Source: Bacteroidota bacterium (lineage in GTDB: Bacteria > Bacteroidota > Rhodothermia > Rhodothermales > Bin80). From it: a stretch of 60,665 nt of DNA. Location of the stretch: NCBI GenBank assembly GCA_026709335.1, contig JAPOTE010000107.1, positions 1 to 60,665 on the forward strand. Direction: 5' to 3'. Positions 29,306 to 41,385 of the stretch are shown here, piece after piece. The position numbers and the translations under genes were made by a program. The number at the start of each line of letters is the position of its first letter. The first letter of the stretch is position 1. The notes below the pieces were generated by a model. It ran no database searches. It was not told the DNA's origin and saw nothing but the letters and a program-made list of their open reading frames with translations.

Positions 29306-32300
29306 GTGCGCTCCAAGTGTGTATCAATACTGGTTAATCAGGTGAGATTATCAGCGTTTCTGTGTCTATTTTTTTGGACGACTGTGGCTTTTTTCTCGGC
29401 CGCAGCGCAGGATGCATCCTTGGATCTCATTGATACTCAATCCGGCATCAGTGTTTATGAAATGAATGCCGAATGGACGGATTCTGAACCGGATATAGGA
29501 GGGCTCCTAGAAGTTTCGGCAGTATTGGATCTTCCCTCTTTGAACCAGCCCTCTGTTCGCGTCCTCGCAGCAGAATATGATGAATATCCATTTGATCTTA
29601 CTGCGGATATCGGGAGTGAAGAGACAATGGTTGTTGGTCTCGGGCTTGCTCGAAAGCGCCCAGCCGCAACGCTTATTGCTCGGCTTGTAACGTATGACTC
29701 AACCACAGCCAGACTTCGGCGCTACAAACATATGCGCATTGAAGTCACGTATCCTACTTCCACGGAAGTTGCCAAAAATTATACGACTTCGGACAACCCG
29801 CATCTTAATGTGAATCGAAGTGTGCTTGCAGATGGGAGAATGTTCAAGATTGCCATCTCTGAAACGGGTATCTACCAGATTGATCGTACATTTCTTGAAT
29901 CTCTGCCAGGGCTCGAGGCTGAAGCAGGAAATATAGATCCTGAACAGATCAGAATTTTTGGAAATGGCGGCGCTCCTGTTCCTGCACTCAATAGTGCTCC
30001 TCGCATTGCAGATTTGGCAGAAAACCAGGTATTTGTGCAAGGGGGCGGAGATGGAAGTTTTGATGAAGGAGATGCTGTATGGTTCTACGGTCAGGCTCCA
30101 AATGGATGGTTTAGTGAGCAGTTGACAGATTCCAGAGGGAGACCTATTCGAAATTCCAGCGGGGAACCGATTCGTGAGTGGAGTCATTACGTACATCCCT
30201 TCGATTCAACGAATTATTATTTTCTGGATATTGGGACTTCTAAAAACCAACCTTATGTGGAAGAAAACTATGCAGACGCCCCTGCGTCTGCTATTCTTAC
30301 AGAAGTCCTTGGGCGACATTTTGTAGATCTTGATGAATATCTTTGGGGGCGAGAAGGTGGGCATTCCGGTCATACCTGGGTAAGTAGGCTCATCCCGGGA
30401 CCAGGCCCTGGACGTGTAGTCATTGAGGAGTTGCAGCTCCCTGGCCTAAACAACGGTAGGCTTAAATATCAAATCCGAGCAGCTATTCAAAGTAATCCTG
30501 CTACCCCCCTGCATTACACTGATGGAACTCAAATCCTTCATAGTGTCAATTATGGAACGACCTTTAATTCACCAACCTCTTCTATTGCACGCTCAGGGAT
30601 TACAGAGTTTGAGATACCTGTTACATCAGGGCAAACCATTAACCTGGTTGCCGATCTTGAAGATCAAAGAGGAGGTCCGCAAGCGGCTCTTGACTGGGTA
30701 CGAGTATTCTATCCAAAGTTATTGGAGGCTGGACAGTTCCCGCTTAAATTCAGTACTCCCCTGGCTGAGGTCGGCACTTTTACATTTGTTCTAAGTGGGT
30801 TTAACTCGGCTCCATTTGTTCTTGATATTACCGAACCAGGGGCCTATCGCAGGCTTGGGATCAGGGCACAGGGTAACAATTTTTTAGTTCAGGCAACTGC
30901 AACCTCTCTCGATGAACCCAGAGAATTGATTGCGTTTACACCCGACCAAGTTCAGTCTTTGAACGCAGCTACCGTATGTGGCTCAGAATGCAATGTGACT
31001 TCTCAAAATTTACATGGAATTCAGACTTGGCCAGATTTTGTAATTATTACACCCAGTCAGTTTATCACACAGGCTGACGCTTTGGCTGATCGACGGGCGA
31101 CCGAAGGATTGAAGACTGAAGTGGTTGATGTGGAACAGATCTATAACGAGTTTTCTGGTGGACAACAAGATATCCGTGGAATCAGGGACTACCTGAAGTT
31201 CATCTACGATCGAAGCTCGAACCCGGACCAGTTGCTGAAATATGTGCTCCTCTTTGGCGATGGACATTTTGATTACAGGAATCTGGATGCTTCAGTCACA
31301 TTCCCTAATCTGATTCCTCCTTTTGAAACGGAAGAATCCTGGAATCCGGAGACGTCCTATACCACAGACGATTACTACGGGTTGTTGGACGATAATGAAG
31401 GACTATGGCCTTTTGCAAGAGGCACATTTTTTGGCTCTGACATACATCTCAACGAACGTGTGGATGTAGGAATTGGACGCTTTACGGTCCATACCGTAGA
31501 AGAAGCGCAATTAATGATTGACAAGATCGCACACTACGAGAGTTCAGATACCTTTGGCCGGTGGCGTAATCGTTATTTGTTTTTGGCCGATGACGGGCCA
31601 ACTGGAACCACAGGGCAGCAAGATGACCGTGACTTGCATACTCAGAATACGGATGTAGTGGCAACCTCATTAGCCAAGATTGCACCCGAGATTAATCAAC
31701 AGAAGGTTTATGCACTCTCATATACACGAGAATTTTTGAATACATGGCGGATTCCCAAGGCACGTCAGGATCTATTGTCGGCAATTGATGAAGGAACACT
31801 TGTGGTAAATTTCAGCGGGCATGGAGGAGAGCGGGCCCTGGCACAGGAAAATCTTTTTACGGTTGAAGATTCTCGTAGCCTCCAGAATTATAACGCACTT
31901 CCCATATTTATTACAGCAACTTGCTCGTTTGGAAGGTGGGATCTGGGAAATGAGCAGACAGGCGCTGAGGAGCTACTTCTCAATCCTTCAGGTGGCGCCA
32001 TTGCACTCCTGACTACCGTCCGGACCGTTTATACATCCGGAGATGCTACGACCCTGAACGTAGGACTGAACGTAGCTCTAAATGAAGAATTGTTCAAACG
32101 TGAAGCGAATGATTACCTTCCCCGTCTAGGAGACGCTTTACGAAGAACCAAGAATAGACGGGTAGGGTATGAAGGAAATAATCGCAAATTCAATCTTCTT
32201 GGAGATCCTACCCTACGTTTGGGCTTACCTCCCGACTATGCGGCAATTACCCATATTAATAGCACCGAACTCAAGATTGAATCGGGAGCGATGCGTGCTC

Positions 32301-33328
32301 TGGAAAAAATTGAACTCAAAGGTGAAGTCCGCCGATCAGATGGATCAAAAGATCCCTCCTTTGATGGTACAATCTCTATTGTGGTGTTTGACGCGTTGAG
32401 AAAGATTCCAATCCCAAGGGAGAAATTTCGCTATATGCCACAGCCTTACTATGAAGTGCGGGAAGATCTGATCTGGAGAGGCAGAACACGTGTTAAGAAT
32501 GGCGAGTTTTCAGCACGGTTTGTCGTTCCCAAAGATATTTCCTATACAAATGAGCCAGGCAAAATTGCTCTCTACGGACAAGGTGCATCTAATCATGTAA
32601 GCGGCTTTACAGAGCAATTTATCGTGGGAGGAACTTCGGAAGACGTAGCTAATGATGTTGATGGGCCAGAAATAGAACTTTTTCTTGGGGATGAAACATT
32701 TACAAGCGGTGGGCTCACTACCCCCGAACCTAAAGTATTTGCACGCATCTTCGATGACAGCGGAATTAATACCGTCGGTGCAGGAGTCGGCCACGAAATG
32801 CTTCTGATTATTGACGGAAACGAAATGGATGCAATCAATATTGGAAATCTCTATGAAAGTGATGAAAATTCATTTCAGGAAGGCTCTGTATCGTATTCGT
32901 TTGATAATCCGCTTTCCCCGGGTCCGCATTCCCTGAGCCTCCGAGCATGGGATGTACTGAATAATTCTGGAGAAACCACACTGAATTTTGTTGTAACAGA
33001 TACGGAAGATCTGGTAATCCGAAATGTATTTAACTATCCCAACCCAACCACCGGACCTACACGATTTGTATTTGAACATAATCAAGTCCCGGGTACACCG
33101 GTTAAAGTACGTGTCAGAGTTTACACGCTGGCCGGGAAAGCTATACGAACCCTAGAAACTGAAGAGTTATTGTCAGCAGGACCAATGCAGATTTTATGGG
33201 ATGGATTGGATAATGATTATGCAAGACTGTCTCCTGGCGTGTATTTATATAAGTTGCGGGCAGAGACGATGGGAGCAGAAGCTTTACATGTTGCCGAGAT
33301 AGTCGAAAAACTGGCAGTCATACGCTAG
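29306..33328 (+). CDS. porU: Type IX secretion system sortase PorU (C25 peptidase)
   Basis: 1340 residues from a GTG start. A signal peptide (about 1-35, ending SAAAQ) is followed by beta-rich N-terminal domains. The C25 gingipain-like domain runs from about 574 (WPDFVIITPSQFI) to 960, with catalytic H839 in NFSGHGGERAL and C873 in ITATCSFGRWD, and GDPTLRLGLP closing the domain. The C-terminal end has a FlgD/T9SS-type Ig domain (NYPNPTTGPTRFVF, YTLAGKAIRTLE, GVYLYKLRA). PorU cleaves the C-terminal sorting domain of secreted cargo and attaches it to the outer membrane. porV follows after 40 bases, the usual pair. Confidence 0.93.
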   Translation: MRSKCVSILVNQVRLSAFLCLFFWTTVAFFSAAAQDASLDLIDTQSGISVYEMNAEWTDSEPDIGGLLEVSAVLDLPSLNQPSVRVLAAEYDEYPFDLTADIGSEETMVVGLGLARKRPAATLIARLVTYDSTTARLRRYKHMRIEVTYPTSTEVAKNYTTSDNPHLNVNRSVLADGRMFKIAISETGIYQIDRTFLESLPGLEAEAGNIDPEQIRIFGNGGAPVPALNSAPRIADLAENQVFVQGGGDGSFDEGDAVWFYGQAPNGWFSEQLTDSRGRPIRNSSGEPIREWSHYVHPFDSTNYYFLDIGTSKNQPYVEENYADAPASAILTEVLGRHFVDLDEYLWGREGGHSGHTWVSRLIPGPGPGRVVIEELQLPGLNNGRLKYQIRAAIQSNPATPLHYTDGTQILHSVNYGTTFNSPTSSIARSGITEFEIPVTSGQTINLVADLEDQRGGPQAALDWVRVFYPKLLEAGQFPLKFSTPLAEVGTFTFVLSGFNSAPFVLDITEPGAYRRLGIRAQGNNFLVQATATSLDEPRELIAFTPDQVQSLNAATVCGSECNVTSQNLHGIQTWPDFVIITPSQFITQADALADRRATEGLKTEVVDVEQIYNEFSGGQQDIRGIRDYLKFIYDRSSNPDQLLKYVLLFGDGHFDYRNLDASVTFPNLIPPFETEESWNPETSYTTDDYYGLLDDNEGLWPFARGTFFGSDIHLNERVDVGIGRFTVHTVEEAQLMIDKIAHYESSDTFGRWRNRYLFLADDGPTGTTGQQDDRDLHTQNTDVVATSLAKIAPEINQQKVYALSYTREFLNTWRIPKARQDLLSAIDEGTLVVNFSGHGGERALAQENLFTVEDSRSLQNYNALPIFITATCSFGRWDLGNEQTGAEELLLNPSGGAIALLTTVRTVYTSGDATTLNVGLNVALNEELFKREANDYLPRLGDALRRTKNRRVGYEGNNRKFNLLGDPTLRLGLPPDYAAITHINSTELKIESGAMRALEKIELKGEVRRSDGSKDPSFDGTISIVVFDALRKIPIPREKFRYMPQPYYEVREDLIWRGRTRVKNGEFSARFVVPKDISYTNEPGKIALYGQGASNHVSGFTEQFIVGGTSEDVANDVDGPEIELFLGDETFTSGGLTTPEPKVFARIFDDSGINTVGAGVGHEMLLIIDGNEMDAINIGNLYESDENSFQEGSVSYSFDNPLSPGPHSLSLRAWDVLNNSGETTLNFVVTDTEDLVIRNVFNYPNPTTGPTRFVFEHNQVPGTPVKVRVRVYTLAGKAIRTLETEELLSAGPMQILWDGLDNDYARLSPGVYLYKLRAETMGAEALHVAEIVEKLAVIR

Positions 33329-33368: not shown

Positions 33369-34556
33369 ATGAGTATTCTAACATTCAAGTCATTTAATAT
33401 TTTTACGCTTTTGATTTTGCTTATCGGTGGCAGTATAGTCCAAAATACAAATGCGCAGACTGGTGCTGCTGCAGTTGTATTCCTGATGATTGAACCTGAC
33501 AGCAGAGCTGCTGGCATGGGCAATGCAGGAGTTGCTATTGCTGATAATGCGAATGCCTTGTTTTGGAATCCTGCCGGGCTGGCAGATCAGGTGGGCACGG
33601 AAGTGGCACTGACACACAGTAATTGGCTTCCCGAGCTAACATCCGATCTATTTTTTGAGTACCTAGTTGCTAAACATAATATTAAAAACTGGGGAACAGT
33701 TGGAGCTCATGTGACTTTTTTGAACCTTGGAGAACATGAGCATCGAGATGAATTGAATACTCCGTTAGGTACATTTCGCTCATATGATCTCTCTGTCGGA
33801 GTTTCTTATGGGTTCAAGTTAACCAAGGGGCTCTCTCTTGGTACGGGCATACGCTGGATTCGGTCAAGTCTGGCGAACGTTAGTGTCGGGGCGCAGGAAT
33901 CTGAGCCGGGCGTATCTGTGGGAGTGGATTTTGCTGCTCTCTACAAATTCCCAAAATTTTCACTCGGTTCGATGGAGGGATCATATAATATAGGATTCAA
34001 CTTGGCCAATATGGGACCAAAAATTCAATACTCGGATAGTGAACAGGCGGATCCTATTCCTACACTATTCCGCTTTGGGCATGCCCTTACGCTTGAACTT
34101 GATAGCTATAACAAGATCACAATAGCAACGGACGCTTCTAAAATTCTTGTGCGACAGCGAGTTACAGAAACCTGTATCGACGAAAACAATCCTGAGACAT
34201 GTACCTCCGAATTCACATCCGATCCATTCTACCGTGCAATCTTTACGGCTTGGACTCCCATCGAAATTCTCGCGAATGCAGTAAACAGTGAAGAGCAGCA
34301 ATTTCGAAATCTTTCGGTCATTGATCAGCTTCTGTTTTCACTTGGATTTGAATACTGGTACAATGACCTGTTCGCTGCCAGAGGGGGATATTTTTATGAA
34401 AACCCCTATAACGGTAACAGAGAGTTCATGACGTTTGGGGCGGGGATTCGCTACAATATTGTAGGAGTTGATTTTTCATATATTTATGCCCTGAAGGAAA
34501 ACCATCCACTTTCCAACACAATGCGCTTTTCACTTCTATTGAACTTTGCGCGTTAA
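33369..34556 (+). CDS. porV: Type IX secretion system outer-membrane protein PorV
   Basis: 395 residues. A signal peptide (about 1-31, ending NTNAQ) precedes the family hallmark: FLMIEPDSRAAGMGNAGVA, ADNANALFWNPAGLAD. The rest is a FadL-like 14-strand barrel (YLVAKHNIKNWGTVGAHVTFLNLG, FEYWYNDLFAARGGYFY, FMTFGAGIRYNIVGVDFSY) ending in a short strand. PorV is the shuttle that delivers cargo from the translocon to the PorU sortase. It directly follows porU, which strengthens both calls. Confidence 0.94.
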   Translation: MSILTFKSFNIFTLLILLIGGSIVQNTNAQTGAAAVVFLMIEPDSRAAGMGNAGVAIADNANALFWNPAGLADQVGTEVALTHSNWLPELTSDLFFEYLVAKHNIKNWGTVGAHVTFLNLGEHEHRDELNTPLGTFRSYDLSVGVSYGFKLTKGLSLGTGIRWIRSSLANVSVGAQESEPGVSVGVDFAALYKFPKFSLGSMEGSYNIGFNLANMGPKIQYSDSEQADPIPTLFRFGHALTLELDSYNKITIATDASKILVRQRVTETCIDENNPETCTSEFTSDPFYRAIFTAWTPIEILANAVNSEEQQFRNLSVIDQLLFSLGFEYWYNDLFAARGGYFYENPYNGNREFMTFGAGIRYNIVGVDFSYIYALKENHPLSNTMRFSLLLNFAR

Positions 34557-34578: not shown

Positions 34579-37476
34579 ATGAAGTGGTTCACTGCCTGGA
34601 TGCTGTTATTGGCATTCGTGCCTCAGGCTTATGCTCAAATTGTTGAGCCGGCTCAACCGAATTATCATGTTGTCGCACTCCGTGTGGAGTTCGCCCCTGA
34701 TACATCTCGTTTCACTACTGGTGATGGAACCTTCTCTGGGCTGAGTTTCCCTCTGGATTCAAAGGTTGACCCACTTCCTCATGATGCGAATTATTTTCAG
34801 GCGCACCTTGATTTTTTACAACATTATGTTGAGACTGCAAGCATAGGCAGAACGAAGATTTCCACCGTTCTTATTCCTGAAGTTGTTCAGCTGCCAAATC
34901 CAATGGCGAGCTACAGCCCAACTGGTGAGGATTCGGAGAGTGAATCAGAGCTTGCAAAATTGGTCGCATTGGTTCATGACTCTTGGATAGAAGCGGACCG
35001 GGTTAGTACACTGAATCCTTTGCAACTTTCTCAAGAGAATACCGCATTCATTCTATTCCATGCGGGAGTGGGACGCGATATAGAATTAATCGGAACAACC
35101 CTTGATAAAACTCCTCAGGATCTTCCATCGGTTTTTATTAGTTCTGAGTTATTATTGAACTTGGGAGGCGGTGAATTGAAGTTCAAGGGTATCCCGGTAG
35201 ATCATTCCATGATTATACCCCGCACAGAGACACGCTCAGGCGTCAATTCAATCACAGATGAACCGTTCTTGTTGGAGTTATCCATTAACGGACTTCTAGC
35301 AGCAAGCTTCATGAGCTACTTGGGAGTGCCTGATCTGTTTAATACGGATACAGGAGAATCTGCAATTGGCCCATTCGGGGTTATGGATCCTCTTGGAATT
35401 TTTGCATATGGTGGTCTGTTTCCACCACTTCCCAGCGCTTGGACGCGTGTTGCACTGGGATGGATCTCTCCTAGGGAGATACAGGAACCTGGAACGTATG
35501 ATCTAATGGTGGATCAAGTTGCTAAAATTGAAATCTCAAAAGCTGAATACTTCCTCTTGGAAAACCGTGTTCGAGATCCAGATAACCAAGGGCTTACAAT
35601 GCAAATATCCAGTAATGGATCGCTTGTATCACAAACTATTCAAGAAGTGAGAGAGGATTTTAATCGATTCGATGTTAGTGGATTTCAGGGCGGGGTAGTG
35701 ACACAGGTAAATGCCTATGATTTTGCCTTGCCTGGTTGGGATTCAGATCAGCAGCAATACAATGGTGGAATTCTGATTTGGCATGTAGATGAGCGTCAGT
35801 TTTCACAGACAGGGAACAATGATCCCAATAGGCGGGCAGTAGATGTTGAAGAGGCAGATGGGGCCCAAGATATTGGATTTGATGGCAATGTTGGTGCTCC
35901 TTTTGATTTCTATTTTGAGGGAAACCCTGTAAGTGTATCTCTTCCTTCCGGCCGTGTCATTGCTCTCTATGAGAATCGGTTCGGACCTGACACCTATCCG
36001 AACAGCGAGACGAACGGGGGAGGGAACAGTTTTCTGGTATTGGAAAACTTTTCCGTTTCAGGCCCGATCATGTCGTTTTCGTTTCGCAAAGATACGGATG
36101 GAGCTGTTGCTGCTCGGAAAACTGTTTCTCTTGGAGTGACTGCAGATATGAAAAGCAGTGTCAGTTCAATCGGAAGTCATAGCGCGGTATATACAGGGAC
36201 CGAAGTATTGGTGCCGGGGGTAGGTCGCGTCAATATGTCTGCACGTCCAGTCTTTTCCTCAGGAAGTATCACAGGAATAGATAACAAAACAACTTCAAAT
36301 TCTACGTTCAACCGTTATACAGTCAAGGATGGACGACTCAATTTAACTGAATCGTTTCCACTTCCGAGTCAGCTACCTGCCCAAAGCCCGGTAATCTACG
36401 ATGGTAATGCACATTACGTTTTGTTATCAGATACGGATCGTACCAGTGTAGTTCAAATTTCTGCAAACAACACCATAGATTCATACGATATTCCTGATCA
36501 AGGACTGGGGCTAGTTGCAACAGATGCAGGTGTATATTTTTTGGGGCGATCTCAGGCAGGACCGATAGATGCACCATCTGTTTGGATGTATAATCTTGAT
36601 GGAGATACAGGCTCTCCAGTGATGGGAAGGGATCGTACTGGAATTTGGGGAGCAATTCCTCTTTCAAGAAATCTCGTGTTCTTGCAGCCGGATGGTTCAG
36701 TCATTCAAATTCCCGGATCTGCATATTTTGGAGAAGATCATTTTTCGAAGGTACTGGCTATGGCAGATTTGAATCAGGATGGGGTATTGGACGTCCTGAC
36801 GACCGTTGGGAACCAGGTCATAGCATTTTCTCAGGGCGGAGCCCTGCTTCCTCCGTTTCCCATCCAGATTGATGCGCCCGCCGTCAATTCCCCACTGATC
36901 TATGAATCCAACGATGGACTCGTAGTTGTTGTGGCTGCGACCGACGGTAATGTGTATGCCTTTGATCTTGGGCAGAACGGTGATATAGTGCCAGGATTTC
37001 CTTTATCCGCAGGCTATTCCCTGCAAGGGAATCCACATATTTCAAGTGATAGTTTAACAGTTATAACCCAGTCAGGTGTTCTTCGGAGTTATACGTTGCA
37101 AGATGCTACACGCATACTCTGGTCAGAACAGCATGGAAACAGCCATAACTCAAGCTTTGTGACTTTGGTATCCGACCCCGTTGAAACGCTTCCTCTTCTC
37201 AATCCTGCCGAAACCTATAATTGGCCCAATCCGGTTCGGGACGGATCGACATTCTTTCGATGTATGACAAGTGAAGCCTCGGATATATCTGTTACCGTCG
37301 TAGACGAGGCAGGGTCGCTGATAGATTCATTCAGTTTTACTACTTCCGCTGGGGTTCCTCATGAAATTTTTTGGCACTCGGATGCAGCAAGTGGAATATA
37401 TTATGCTCGAGTTCAAGCAACATCTACTTCGGGGATAACGGACTCCCGTTTGATCAAACTCGCAATCATTCGATGA
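34579..37476 (+). CDS. Type IX cargo protein: M6-metalloprotease-like with degenerate active site
   Basis: 965 residues from the ATG at 34579 (MKWFTAWMLLLAFVPQAYAQ signal peptide; a longer frame from 34546 overlaps porV). The fold is M6: HVVALRVEF near the start, IGPFGVMDPLGIFAYGG, GGILIWHVDERQ and VDVEEADGAQDIG. The zinc motif, normally HEFGHxLGLPDLY, reads ASFMSYLGVPDLF (242-254): both His and the Glu are gone, so peptidase activity is very unlikely. A beta-propeller-like middle (DLNQDGVLDVL) and a type-A sorting tail (NWPNPVRDGST, GIYYARVQATS, RLIKLAIIR) complete it. It overlaps the next gene by four bases. Confidence 0.88.
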   Translation: MKWFTAWMLLLAFVPQAYAQIVEPAQPNYHVVALRVEFAPDTSRFTTGDGTFSGLSFPLDSKVDPLPHDANYFQAHLDFLQHYVETASIGRTKISTVLIPEVVQLPNPMASYSPTGEDSESESELAKLVALVHDSWIEADRVSTLNPLQLSQENTAFILFHAGVGRDIELIGTTLDKTPQDLPSVFISSELLLNLGGGELKFKGIPVDHSMIIPRTETRSGVNSITDEPFLLELSINGLLAASFMSYLGVPDLFNTDTGESAIGPFGVMDPLGIFAYGGLFPPLPSAWTRVALGWISPREIQEPGTYDLMVDQVAKIEISKAEYFLLENRVRDPDNQGLTMQISSNGSLVSQTIQEVREDFNRFDVSGFQGGVVTQVNAYDFALPGWDSDQQQYNGGILIWHVDERQFSQTGNNDPNRRAVDVEEADGAQDIGFDGNVGAPFDFYFEGNPVSVSLPSGRVIALYENRFGPDTYPNSETNGGGNSFLVLENFSVSGPIMSFSFRKDTDGAVAARKTVSLGVTADMKSSVSSIGSHSAVYTGTEVLVPGVGRVNMSARPVFSSGSITGIDNKTTSNSTFNRYTVKDGRLNLTESFPLPSQLPAQSPVIYDGNAHYVLLSDTDRTSVVQISANNTIDSYDIPDQGLGLVATDAGVYFLGRSQAGPIDAPSVWMYNLDGDTGSPVMGRDRTGIWGAIPLSRNLVFLQPDGSVIQIPGSAYFGEDHFSKVLAMADLNQDGVLDVLTTVGNQVIAFSQGGALLPPFPIQIDAPAVNSPLIYESNDGLVVVVAATDGNVYAFDLGQNGDIVPGFPLSAGYSLQGNPHISSDSLTVITQSGVLRSYTLQDATRILWSEQHGNSHNSSFVTLVSDPVETLPLLNPAETYNWPNPVRDGSTFFRCMTSEASDISVTVVDEAGSLIDSFSFTTSAGVPHEIFWHSDAASGIYYARVQATSTSGITDSRLIKLAIIR

Positions 37477-40400
37477 GGTGGCTCTTCGGTATTCTTATAG
37501 TAGTAGGAATCGTAGGGTCTACACAGGCACAGGTATCTCCAAACCTCATCGATTTTAGTCGTCCGACTCTGGAGTGGTATCAGATTGAGACTGAGCACTT
37601 TACGGTTCTGTTTCATGCAGATGATGCAGGAAATGGCGCAAGCCGTTCTGCACAGGTAGCAGCACGCATAGCAGAAGAGATCTATGGGCCGATCACCCGC
37701 CTTTATGGGCATGAGCCGAGTGGCAAGGTTCATATTATTCTTAAAGATTATGAAGATTATTCCAACGGAGCAGCATTCTTTTTTGACAACAAGATTGAAA
37801 TTTGGGCTCCCGCGCTGAATTCACCTTTGCGTGGAGCCAGTGATTGGCTACGTAATGTAATCACGCACGAGTTTACGCATATTGTACAGGTACAGGCAGC
37901 CATGAAGCTTCCACGAACTATCCCGTTCGGATATCTCCAGATACTGGATTATGAGAAAGTTCGACGCCCCGATGTATTGTACGGATATCCCAATGTACTT
38001 GTAAGCTACCCTCTTGTTGGCCTGAATAACCCGGCATGGCTCGCCGAGGGAACCGCACAATATCAACATGATCATTTTCACTATGATTTATGGGATTCGC
38101 ACAGAGACATGTTGCTTCGAACACGAATTCTGGAAAACAAAACTCTGAGCCTCAACGAACTGGGAAGTTTTTACTCCAAAAATAGCCTGATGCGTGAAGG
38201 TGTTTATAATTATGGATTTGCATTTTCACTCTATTTAGCGCAGAAATATGGATCCGAAGTATTATCCGAAATCAGCGATCATTTACGCCGTTGGGATACA
38301 TGGCGAGTGGAACGCGCCATCAAGTTGGCAACCGGTACAAATGGAAAAGAGATATACAACTTATGGCTTGAAGAATTGGCTAATGCATACAAACAAGCAC
38401 TCTCCCCTATAAAGAATTTGCTTACTGTTGGAACGATTATTGAACCATCCGGTTTTGCAAATTATTTTCCACGGTTTTCTCCTGACGGTACAAAACTTGC
38501 CTACATTACCAATAAAGGAGAATACTATAGCCGAGTGAGCCTGTATGTACGAGATTTGGAAAATGACATGGTGATCGCTCATGACTTAGGGGTTGCAATC
38601 GGTGATCATATCTGCTCTCTTGGTCATCGGGTTAAATCAGGTGTTACTGGTGGAGCTGCTTGGCATCCGGATGGAAATGCACTTGTCTATGCCCGACAGA
38701 AAACTACTTCAGAGGGATTTCTGTATACGGATCTTCATTTAGTGGATTTGGAGACTCAAAAATCTTCGCAGCTAACGCAAGATGCACGTGCGTCACAGCC
38801 TGCATGGGATTCCACTGGAACAAGGATCGCATATGTGGTATCCGGTGATGGTACGAGCAATATCTGGCTACTTGACGTGCAGACAGGAGAGACAAGAGCT
38901 GTCACAAAATTTTCAAATGGAACACAGGTGACCGGCCCTGCATGGTATGGAAACTGGATTTATTATGCACAGCTTGATCCAGGAGGCCATGGGAACGATC
39001 TTTGGAGAATCAAGGCAGACGGGGCAAATTTTGAATCTGTTCTGCAAACATCTGCCGATGAGCGATCTCCTATGATTGCCGATGGTATTGTGCATTATGC
39101 TTCCGATGCAAATGGGATCTACAATATTTACCGATTGACCGATACTGGTCCTGAACAACTGACTCAAGTGACAGGGGGAGCTTTCATGCCTGACAGGGGG
39201 CCGGATGGAACGATTGCCTATGCTGCTTACAAATGGGATGGATATAAAATAGCTTTGCTGGAATCGCCCCAAGCTCTGAAATCAACCGCCTCCTATACTT
39301 TTCCCGAGCTCATTTCCAGGGTAACGCATACTGCCGACTCGAGCAACGATGCCGACGTAATGGAAATAACCGCAAGTGAACTCTCGGAAGTACTTGCTGA
39401 AAAAACACCGGTAGGGATCGATTCATTACAGATATCTTCTTACGGAGCCGCATTCACAGGATTCACAGTTTCGCCGGTGATACGACTGGATCAATATGTA
39501 GAACGTCAACTTGAGGGGCGTATTCAGGGTAGGGCAGAGACATTCTGGAGGAATCTCAAATTCGGGGCATACGTTTCGTCCAGAGAAATTCTGGAAGGCA
39601 TGAGCCTGTTTGGTGGGCTGCTGGTTGGGCCAGGATCTCATGAGGGCGGTCAGATTCTTGCTCCGGCCAATTTGTTGGCATTGGAGCGAGATGCGTTTTT
39701 ACAATTCGACTATGGTAAAGGATTTCGATTGATCCCCAAACGATGGTCCCCGCAAATCTCTATCCAACTGTTTAACATTCAGCGCATGGTTGAACGCGGG
39801 TTATCTATTGAAGAGCATCCCTGTACAGCCTGTTTGCCAGAAACGACCAATGCTGATTTGACGTATGGTCTATGGGAGGGAAACATCTATCTGCGGAGTA
39901 AGGTCAACAGGTATATTTTACTTGAGACCGGATACCGTTATAGCCCTTATCGTGTGACAACTAATCGATTTTTTTCAAGAGAGTTAGCGGACTGGATCCC
40001 CAGTACTTCGTCTCGTTATTATATTGGGCGGAGTTATATGGCAAATGTCTATATGGAATTGATGCGCCCTCACCGAGAGTCAGATATCATGCGTACGGGA
40101 ATTCGTATGACTGCCTCCTATCACCGAGAAACAGGCAGATTATTGGATCAGTTTGATATTCGGGACGGGCAATTGGTACCAGTTTACAATTCAAGTACAT
40201 TGCACCGACTTAGAGTGGATTTGGGAGGCGGCATTCGACTGCCCGGCCAAATATATGGAACCTCGCATGGTCTAAGCCTAAGACTGAGTGCATCAACCTT
40301 ATTTGGCAAGAATGCAGATTCTTTTTATTTTGACTATATCGGGGGATTATCTGGAGCGAGAGGTTACCCATTTTATGGCTTGGGTGGGACCGAGACCTTA

Positions 40401-40733
40401 TGGCTACAAACTTCCTGGACCTTTCCCATCATGCCGGATATCAAGCGCCAAATCGGCCCGGTGTATCTAGACAAAGCATTCATGAGATTGTACGCTGACG
40501 GTGCACAGGTTCGACCGGAGAGTGCAGCACTTCGTAAAGATGTTGGTGCAGAATTGCGATTGATGATGGGAAGCTATTATCTTCTGCCAACCGCACTGTT
40601 TGTGAGTGCAACCTATGGACTTGACTCATTTGAGGTGAAGCTGGACGATGCCTTTATTAGTACACAGTCCAGCGTCAGTTACGGAAAACAGGTCCAGTGG
40701 CACTTTGGAGTCCTCTTTGGATTTGATTTATAA
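37473..40733 (+). CDS. Exported gluzincin peptidase (peptidase MA-like) with beta-propeller and outer-membrane barrel
   Basis: 1086 residues from the ATG at 37473, which overlaps the stop of the previous gene (ATGA). A signal peptide (1-21) is followed by a peptidase-MA domain with HEFTH (132-136) and the third zinc ligand E192 in WLAEGTAQY; the active site is intact. Residues about 320-610 are TolB/WD40-like propeller blades (FSPDGTKLAYITNKGE, WHPDGNALVYARQ, WDSTGTRIAYVVSGDG). The last 400 residues look like an Omp85-type barrel (GARGYPFYGLGGTETLWLQ, FVSATYGL). Proteins of this plan are known in Bacteroidota but have no assigned role. It probably works with the type IX genes upstream. Confidence 0.82.
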   Translation: MRWLFGILIVVGIVGSTQAQVSPNLIDFSRPTLEWYQIETEHFTVLFHADDAGNGASRSAQVAARIAEEIYGPITRLYGHEPSGKVHIILKDYEDYSNGAAFFFDNKIEIWAPALNSPLRGASDWLRNVITHEFTHIVQVQAAMKLPRTIPFGYLQILDYEKVRRPDVLYGYPNVLVSYPLVGLNNPAWLAEGTAQYQHDHFHYDLWDSHRDMLLRTRILENKTLSLNELGSFYSKNSLMREGVYNYGFAFSLYLAQKYGSEVLSEISDHLRRWDTWRVERAIKLATGTNGKEIYNLWLEELANAYKQALSPIKNLLTVGTIIEPSGFANYFPRFSPDGTKLAYITNKGEYYSRVSLYVRDLENDMVIAHDLGVAIGDHICSLGHRVKSGVTGGAAWHPDGNALVYARQKTTSEGFLYTDLHLVDLETQKSSQLTQDARASQPAWDSTGTRIAYVVSGDGTSNIWLLDVQTGETRAVTKFSNGTQVTGPAWYGNWIYYAQLDPGGHGNDLWRIKADGANFESVLQTSADERSPMIADGIVHYASDANGIYNIYRLTDTGPEQLTQVTGGAFMPDRGPDGTIAYAAYKWDGYKIALLESPQALKSTASYTFPELISRVTHTADSSNDADVMEITASELSEVLAEKTPVGIDSLQISSYGAAFTGFTVSPVIRLDQYVERQLEGRIQGRAETFWRNLKFGAYVSSREILEGMSLFGGLLVGPGSHEGGQILAPANLLALERDAFLQFDYGKGFRLIPKRWSPQISIQLFNIQRMVERGLSIEEHPCTACLPETTNADLTYGLWEGNIYLRSKVNRYILLETGYRYSPYRVTTNRFFSRELADWIPSTSSRYYIGRSYMANVYMELMRPHRESDIMRTGIRMTASYHRETGRLLDQFDIRDGQLVPVYNSSTLHRLRVDLGGGIRLPGQIYGTSHGLSLRLSASTLFGKNADSFYFDYIGGLSGARGYPFYGLGGTETLWLQTSWTFPIMPDIKRQIGPVYLDKAFMRLYADGAQVRPESAALRKDVGAELRLMMGSYYLLPTALFVSATYGLDSFEVKLDDAFISTQSSVSYGKQVQWHFGVLFGFDL

Positions 40734-40746
40734 ATATTGAAATCAA

Positions 40747-41385
40747 ATGACACCCTTACTTGTAATTTGCTTTTTGTTTATTGTAGTCAGTATTGGAGTA
40801 GTTTATATGGTACTCCGCAAAAATTCACGACCGATTCCTCAGGGGGCCTTGCAATGGATGGTGACCGGCATGTGTACAGTGCTGGTATGTTTGTCTGGTT
40901 TGGTGATTGCCCTTATTTGGATTTATGAGGAGCCGACCGACTTAAGTGACACACCGACGTTGGCTGAGTCATTTGAATTTCAATTAGTATCCAACCAAGA
41001 AAATAAAAACCTCCGCGATTATAGCGGGAAGGTGATTCTTCTGAACTTCTGGGCAACTTGGTGCCAGCCTTGCATCACAGAATTGCCCGAACTCGACGAA
41101 CTTCAGGTAGCTTATCGTGAAAAAGGACTGGTGGTCCTAACCGTATCAGATGAAGAACTGGAAGAATTACAGTTGTATTCCGATTTATTACCACAAGAAA
41201 CAGTTTCTGGATTTGTTCGGCATGAAAGCCTGCCCGAGTCGTTTCGTTATGAGTTGGCAAATGGGCGACCCGTCACCTATGTCATCGATGGGGACGGAAT
41301 GATACGTGAACATGTTCGAGGAGCAGGGAATTTTGCGTACTTTGAAGGACTCGTCACCCCATGGCTTGCTGAACTTGAATCTTAG
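40747..41385 (+). CDS. Membrane-anchored TlpA/ResA-like thioredoxin
   Basis: 212 residues. Two transmembrane helices (about 3-22 and 37-58) tether an extracytoplasmic thioredoxin domain: GKVILLNFWATWCQPCITELPELDEL contains the redox pair WCQPC, and GRPVTYVIDGDGMIREHVRGAG carries the cis-proline loop. Proteins like this reduce or pass electrons to periplasmic thiols. It starts 13 bases after the large peptidase gene and likely belongs to the same transcript. Confidence 0.9.
   Translation: MTPLLVICFLFIVVSIGVVYMVLRKNSRPIPQGALQWMVTGMCTVLVCLSGLVIALIWIYEEPTDLSDTPTLAESFEFQLVSNQENKNLRDYSGKVILLNFWATWCQPCITELPELDELQVAYREKGLVVLTVSDEELEELQLYSDLLPQETVSGFVRHESLPESFRYELANGRPVTYVIDGDGMIREHVRGAGNFAYFEGLVTPWLAELES

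Follow-up and report, generated by a model that had tools for sequence, protein, structure and literature searches.

We uncovered, in the T9SS gene neighborhoods of Bacteroidota, an M6-like protein (henceforth M6i) that has lost its HExxH zinc site across its whole family and that occurs strictly together with a second protein, S9, in which an HExxH motif is intact. We suggest that M6i is exported via PorV and acts as a pseudoprotease subunit of the peptidase-like S9. This proposal is tentative, at somewhat less than an even chance, because the contact between the two proteins is a prediction and the adjacency of their genes explains part of their co-loss.

The window, i.e., the whole analyzed stretch of 60,665 nucleotides on contig JAPOTE010000107.1 of a bacterium of the class Rhodothermia, codes for M6i in an ORF that runs from an ATG at 34579 to a TGA at 37476 and is the only full-length copy in this genome (Table 1). 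M6i is a plain member of the NCBIfam family NF052323, whose annotation already records the inactivation and whose cut-off is also reached by most of the scanned homologues from outside the class. The generic M6 model TIGR03296 scores 37.9 bits on M6i, under its cut-off of 110.8, and aligns to residues 248–332 only; a Pfam PF05547 search of the genome gave zero matches but is uninformative, its controls likewise giving zero. We found no paper on the M6i family or on M6 proteins in T9SS in a literature search that left most subscription journals outside. In C. hutchinsonii, chu_3239, which lies behind porV, has been termed a zinc protease; the fragment described seems too short to be an M6i gene.

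Table 1. Features of the porU–porV–M6i–S9 region, with positions in the window
Feature	Position	Strand	Support
PorU, T9SS sortase	29306..33328	+	NF033707 968 bits, cut-off 420
PorV, T9SS outer-membrane carrier	33369..34556	+	NF033710 295.5 bits, cut-off 250
M6i, T9SS-dependent M6-like inactivated metalloprotease, 965 aa	34579..37476	+	NF052323 723.8 bits, cut-off 600
M6i predicted signal peptide, residues 1–19	34579..34635	+	Hydrophobic N-terminus, end ...AYA-Q, read from sequence
Pseudo-M6 domain, residues 20–505	34636..36093	+	AlphaFold2 pLDDT 84.4, pTM 0.89; InhA2 4yu5 match
Former zinc helix, residues 237–247 (mature 218–228)	35287..35319	+	Alignments, predicted structure
ASFMS at HExxH position, residues 242–246	35302–35316	+	Alignments, predicted structure
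Beta-propeller, eight-bladed type, residues 509–841	36103..37101	+	VIA-align
Type-A T9SS C-terminal sorting domain, residues 881–965	37219..37473	+	TIGR04183 23.8 bits, cut-off 23
S9: signal peptide, HExxH gluzincin-like domain, TolB-like propeller, C-terminal barrel-like region	37473..40733	+	
Intact HEFTH of S9	37866..37880	+	HExxH in 137/137 homologues
Thioredoxin-like gene	40747..41385	+	Adjoins porV directly in several genomes without the M6i–S9 pair

As judged from its sequence and predicted structure, M6i is an M6 homologue and not an M6 peptidase, with the fold present and the HExxH zinc site gone. In MAFFT and profile alignments with M6 proteins from this phylum whose site is intact (L224–L229), the latter display HEFGH, HEYGH or HEMGH and then a motif of the GLPD type, and the aligned stretch of M6i reads ASFMS-Y-LGVPDLF, such that ASFMS falls on HExxH, as the preliminary description had placed it; hhalign of M6i against intact M6 concurs (probability 99.8%, E 1.2e-27). 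The former zinc helix is retained in the predicted structure, and the chain has no HExxH elsewhere. Homologues are present in 155 of the 394 genomes of the phylum that were searched, a few of the weakest matches possibly being other M6 proteins. Across 137 distinct homologues, the H, E and H of the three site positions are kept in none, the first H being replaced by A, S or G, the E by S, Q, N, T and others, and the second H by S, N and others. The 66 proteins from the class have A (63) or S (3) at position 242, never E at 243, and S, N or R at 246, and the same loss is seen in 34 loci from elsewhere in the phylum. Since the relatives share the change and the window's genome is not alone in it, the original observation stands, and a single ancient loss of the site would be its simplest reading. 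Two homologues (L016 and L017) contain an unrelated HEMAH at residue 139, off the old site.

The preliminary description went one ligand too far in declaring the whole zinc site lost: the HExxH residues are gone, and the Asp at the position of the possible third ligand (252) is retained in 136/137 homologues. This Asp, the conservation peak at the old site, and the invariant H161, D167, T178, D181 and H402, which sit in other conserved motifs, are what one might adduce for some other metal-dependent or hydrolytic chemistry at the altered site. However, Ala or Ser at the first His and Ser or Asn at the second do not make a transition-metal site, and with no compensating HExxH in the chain we regard such chemistry as very improbable.

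The scaffold itself has been kept by strong selection, in line with what was initially surmised: the IWHVDE and VEEADG signatures are present, and the best-conserved stretch of M6i, with a mean identity of 0.78–0.79, is the segment 245–294 of the former active site, whereas the least conserved part is the first half of the propeller (about 0.3). The predicted structure of the full mature protein (pLDDT 91.2, pTM 0.88) comprises, in order, the pseudo-M6 domain, the propeller and a C-terminal beta region. VIA-align of the domain model retrieves the M6 peptidase InhA2 (4yu5) with Z 19.5 and rmsd 3.6 over 362 aligned residues, the next best match being at 8.3. InhA2 surfaced by this route only: Foldseek gave no match to the domain model at E <= 0.001, and phmmer and profile searches against PDB sequences returned no M6 match for M6i. 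Matches to the full model are dominated by propellers, and the propeller aligns with eight-bladed designs and BamB at Z 23–26, including the designed eight-blade Cake8 (6tjg, Z 26.1) and BamB (Z about 24); it is a common fold that is uninformative on function.

The variability of the propeller is as expected for a surface ligand binder, and M6i has an ordinary signal peptide and a type-A tail, the latter detected by its profile in agreement with the first reading and shared with about 28 other proteins of the window's genome. Thus, M6i might be ordinary surface cargo, i.e., an adhesin or scaffold for glycans or peptides that S9 processes or anchors. We consider this unlikely, as cargo would not be expected to be single-copy, to keep one constant position within a T9SS operon and to have a pseudo-M6 domain so strongly conserved phylum-wide.

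The gene order porU-porV-M6i-S9 is seen in most of the class and mostly also in the rest of the phylum, with porV directly upstream of M6i in 146/146 testable loci and S9 directly downstream in 130/137; in the window, the stop of M6i and the start of S9 overlap in an ATGA (37473–37476). "S9" is a working label taken from S9-like propeller matches and does not denote a serine peptidase. Past the HExxH by about 60 residues, most S9 homologues have a WLAEG-type glutamate (121/137 by a strict pattern), and Peptidase_MA_2 matches 23 of 24 S9 proteins, the score for that of the window being 22.9 bits, under the cut-off of 32.4. The propeller has PDB profile matches to TolB (E 4e-18), and the C-terminal region, with an RGY(P/A) motif in 55/137 by a strict pattern, reads like an outer-membrane barrel. 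Both the peptidase activity and the barrel of S9 are predictions from these features. Though conserved across the phylum, S9 reaches no NCBIfam cut-off and looks like an unnamed family. The preliminary description, which pointed to PorU or PorV as the partner, made no mention of S9, and it is S9 that goes with M6i without exception.

In genome-wide searches, S9 is present in 45/45 M6i-positive and 0/34 M6i-negative genomes of the class, and in 40/40 and 0/40, respectively, outside the class within the phylum, the M6i state being taken by hand from tables and the out-of-class negatives being genomes off the match list irrespective of their T9SS status. The 34 negatives of the class all have SprA and are thus the stronger ones. 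In total, both genes are present in 85/85 and neither in 74/74, an agreement of 159/159 with no genome having one alone. Likewise, S9 is absent from all 20 porV loci without M6i that were fetched, in five of which (L260, L261, L262, L265 and L266) porV is directly followed by the thioredoxin-like gene. On a PorV tree of 57 rows, 47 of them with both traits tested, at least 12 changes in the state of M6i are needed, every one of them matched by S9; in supported independent pairs, M6i and S9 agree in 7/7 (p 0.016) and PorU in about one.

Given the adjacency in 130/137 loci, one deletion removes both genes, and co-loss alone may thus reflect linkage. One could accordingly suppose that M6i and S9 are unrelated in function and co-travel only as neighbors. 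However, there are at least nine genomes, from several families (G237, G247, G309, G338, G344, G347, G379, G447 and G454; few cases, and counted per genome rather than as independent events), in which the two genes are unlinked, on separate contigs or far apart, with both kept each time, and with 0/159 genomes having one gene alone, mere neighborhood is an improbable explanation.

The preliminary description had inferred a PorU or PorV partner from position. The position behind porV holds phylum-wide, but M6i does not follow the presence of PorU, which is absent in 18/45 M6i-positive and present in 17/34 M6i-negative genomes of the class. Balneolaceae-type loci read thiolase-porU-porV where PorU is present and otherwise thiolase-porV, a clean deletion. 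M6i does not depend on PorU, and PorU is not supported as its partner: M6i stays after the deletion, is missing from many PorU-positive genomes, and the tree disagrees. Genomes with the deletion (L068, L069, L070, L126, L139 and others; Rhodohalobacter-type, Fodinibius-type and related) keep SprA, PorV, M6i and S9, and PorZ was not found in them, bar one weak match; nor does PorU2 (NF052324), considered as a substitute partner in PorU-less genomes, have any match there. In a separate family, f12 (G183, G191–G204), SprA and PorV are accompanied mostly by PorU2 instead of PorU, and there is neither M6i nor S9. SprA was detected in 79/79 class genomes tested and PorV over its cut-off in 78/79; with PorV near-universal, co-occurrence is uninformative on a tie between it and M6i. 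In the window's genome, SprA is split into two frames on contig C97 (60336–67876; profile positions 8–1888 and 1909–2319), possibly owing to a frameshift or assembly error.

The invariable place behind porV, the retention of M6i with PorV where PorU is deleted, and the combination of a propeller and a C-terminal domain as in PorZ (PMC8545088) would also fit an accessory of T9SS attachment or of the translocon, seated on PorV via an uncleaved C-terminal domain like PorZ or PorU of P. gingivalis, with S9 a co-regulated neighbor. This is rather unlikely: many genomes with SprA, PorV, PorU and PorZ lack M6i, the constant presence of S9, even when unlinked, is left unexplained, and the window's genome has a separate PorZ, which also rules out M6i as a PorZ replacement.

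Under the proposal that M6i is a subunit of S9, the M6 (immune inhibitor A) fold would have lost catalysis once, before the family spread in Bacteroidota, and have been kept for binding. M6i would be made with a signal peptide and, as type-A domains are carried by PorV through SprA (PMC10994853), would probably leave the cell through the T9SS by the same route on its type-A C-terminal domain. At the cell surface, it could then serve as the non-catalytic subunit of S9, which is predicted to lie in the outer membrane and combines a TolB-like propeller with a domain whose HExxH is intact. The old cleft and propeller of M6i would most likely hold a peptide or protein for S9, or else gate its activity, although M6i could also act otherwise than as an S9 subunit. 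More broadly, and still more speculatively, the two genes may constitute a hitherto undescribed surface proteolysis module of Bacteroidota, in which a T9SS-exported pseudoprotease either presents substrates to a propeller-barrel HExxH peptidase of the outer membrane or switches this peptidase, and which is gained and lost as a unit beside porV, independently of PorU.

Few bacterial pseudoproteases have a testable function. M6i is fixed across a phylum, lies in a T9SS operon and has a single, always-present partner with an HExxH motif; hence, a vague annotation as an "inactivated metalloprotease" can be replaced with a concrete hypothesis. Relative to the literature searched, the phylum-wide operon, the PorU independence and the strict partner are new. 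The natural PorU deletions of the Rhodohalobacter and Fodinibius types, wherein PorV and M6i persist without the sortase, additionally pose a question for T9SS biology.

With respect to known systems, M6i does not differ at the protein level from NF052323, with which it shares the whole architecture, the lost site and the type-A tail; the operon, partner and role of that family are not described in the literature searched. Its closest structural counterpart, InhA2 (PDB 4yu5/4yu6), is a peptidase zymogen, whereas M6i has no HExxH and additionally bears a propeller and a T9SS tail. In the T9SS attachment complex of P. gingivalis, PorZ resembles M6i in its propeller, type-A-like C-terminal domain and T9SS context, but has no pseudo-M6 domain; and with respect to that complex as a whole (PorU, PorV, PorQ and PorZ), the presence of M6i does not track PorU. 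The iRhom pseudoproteases, with ADAM17, may offer an analogy for the proposed principle of a dead protease serving a live one, though they are animal proteins of an unrelated, membrane-embedded fold, unlike M6i. As a pseudoprotease/protease pair, M6i and S9 display the strict co-occurrence of a dead member with an HExxH-bearing one.
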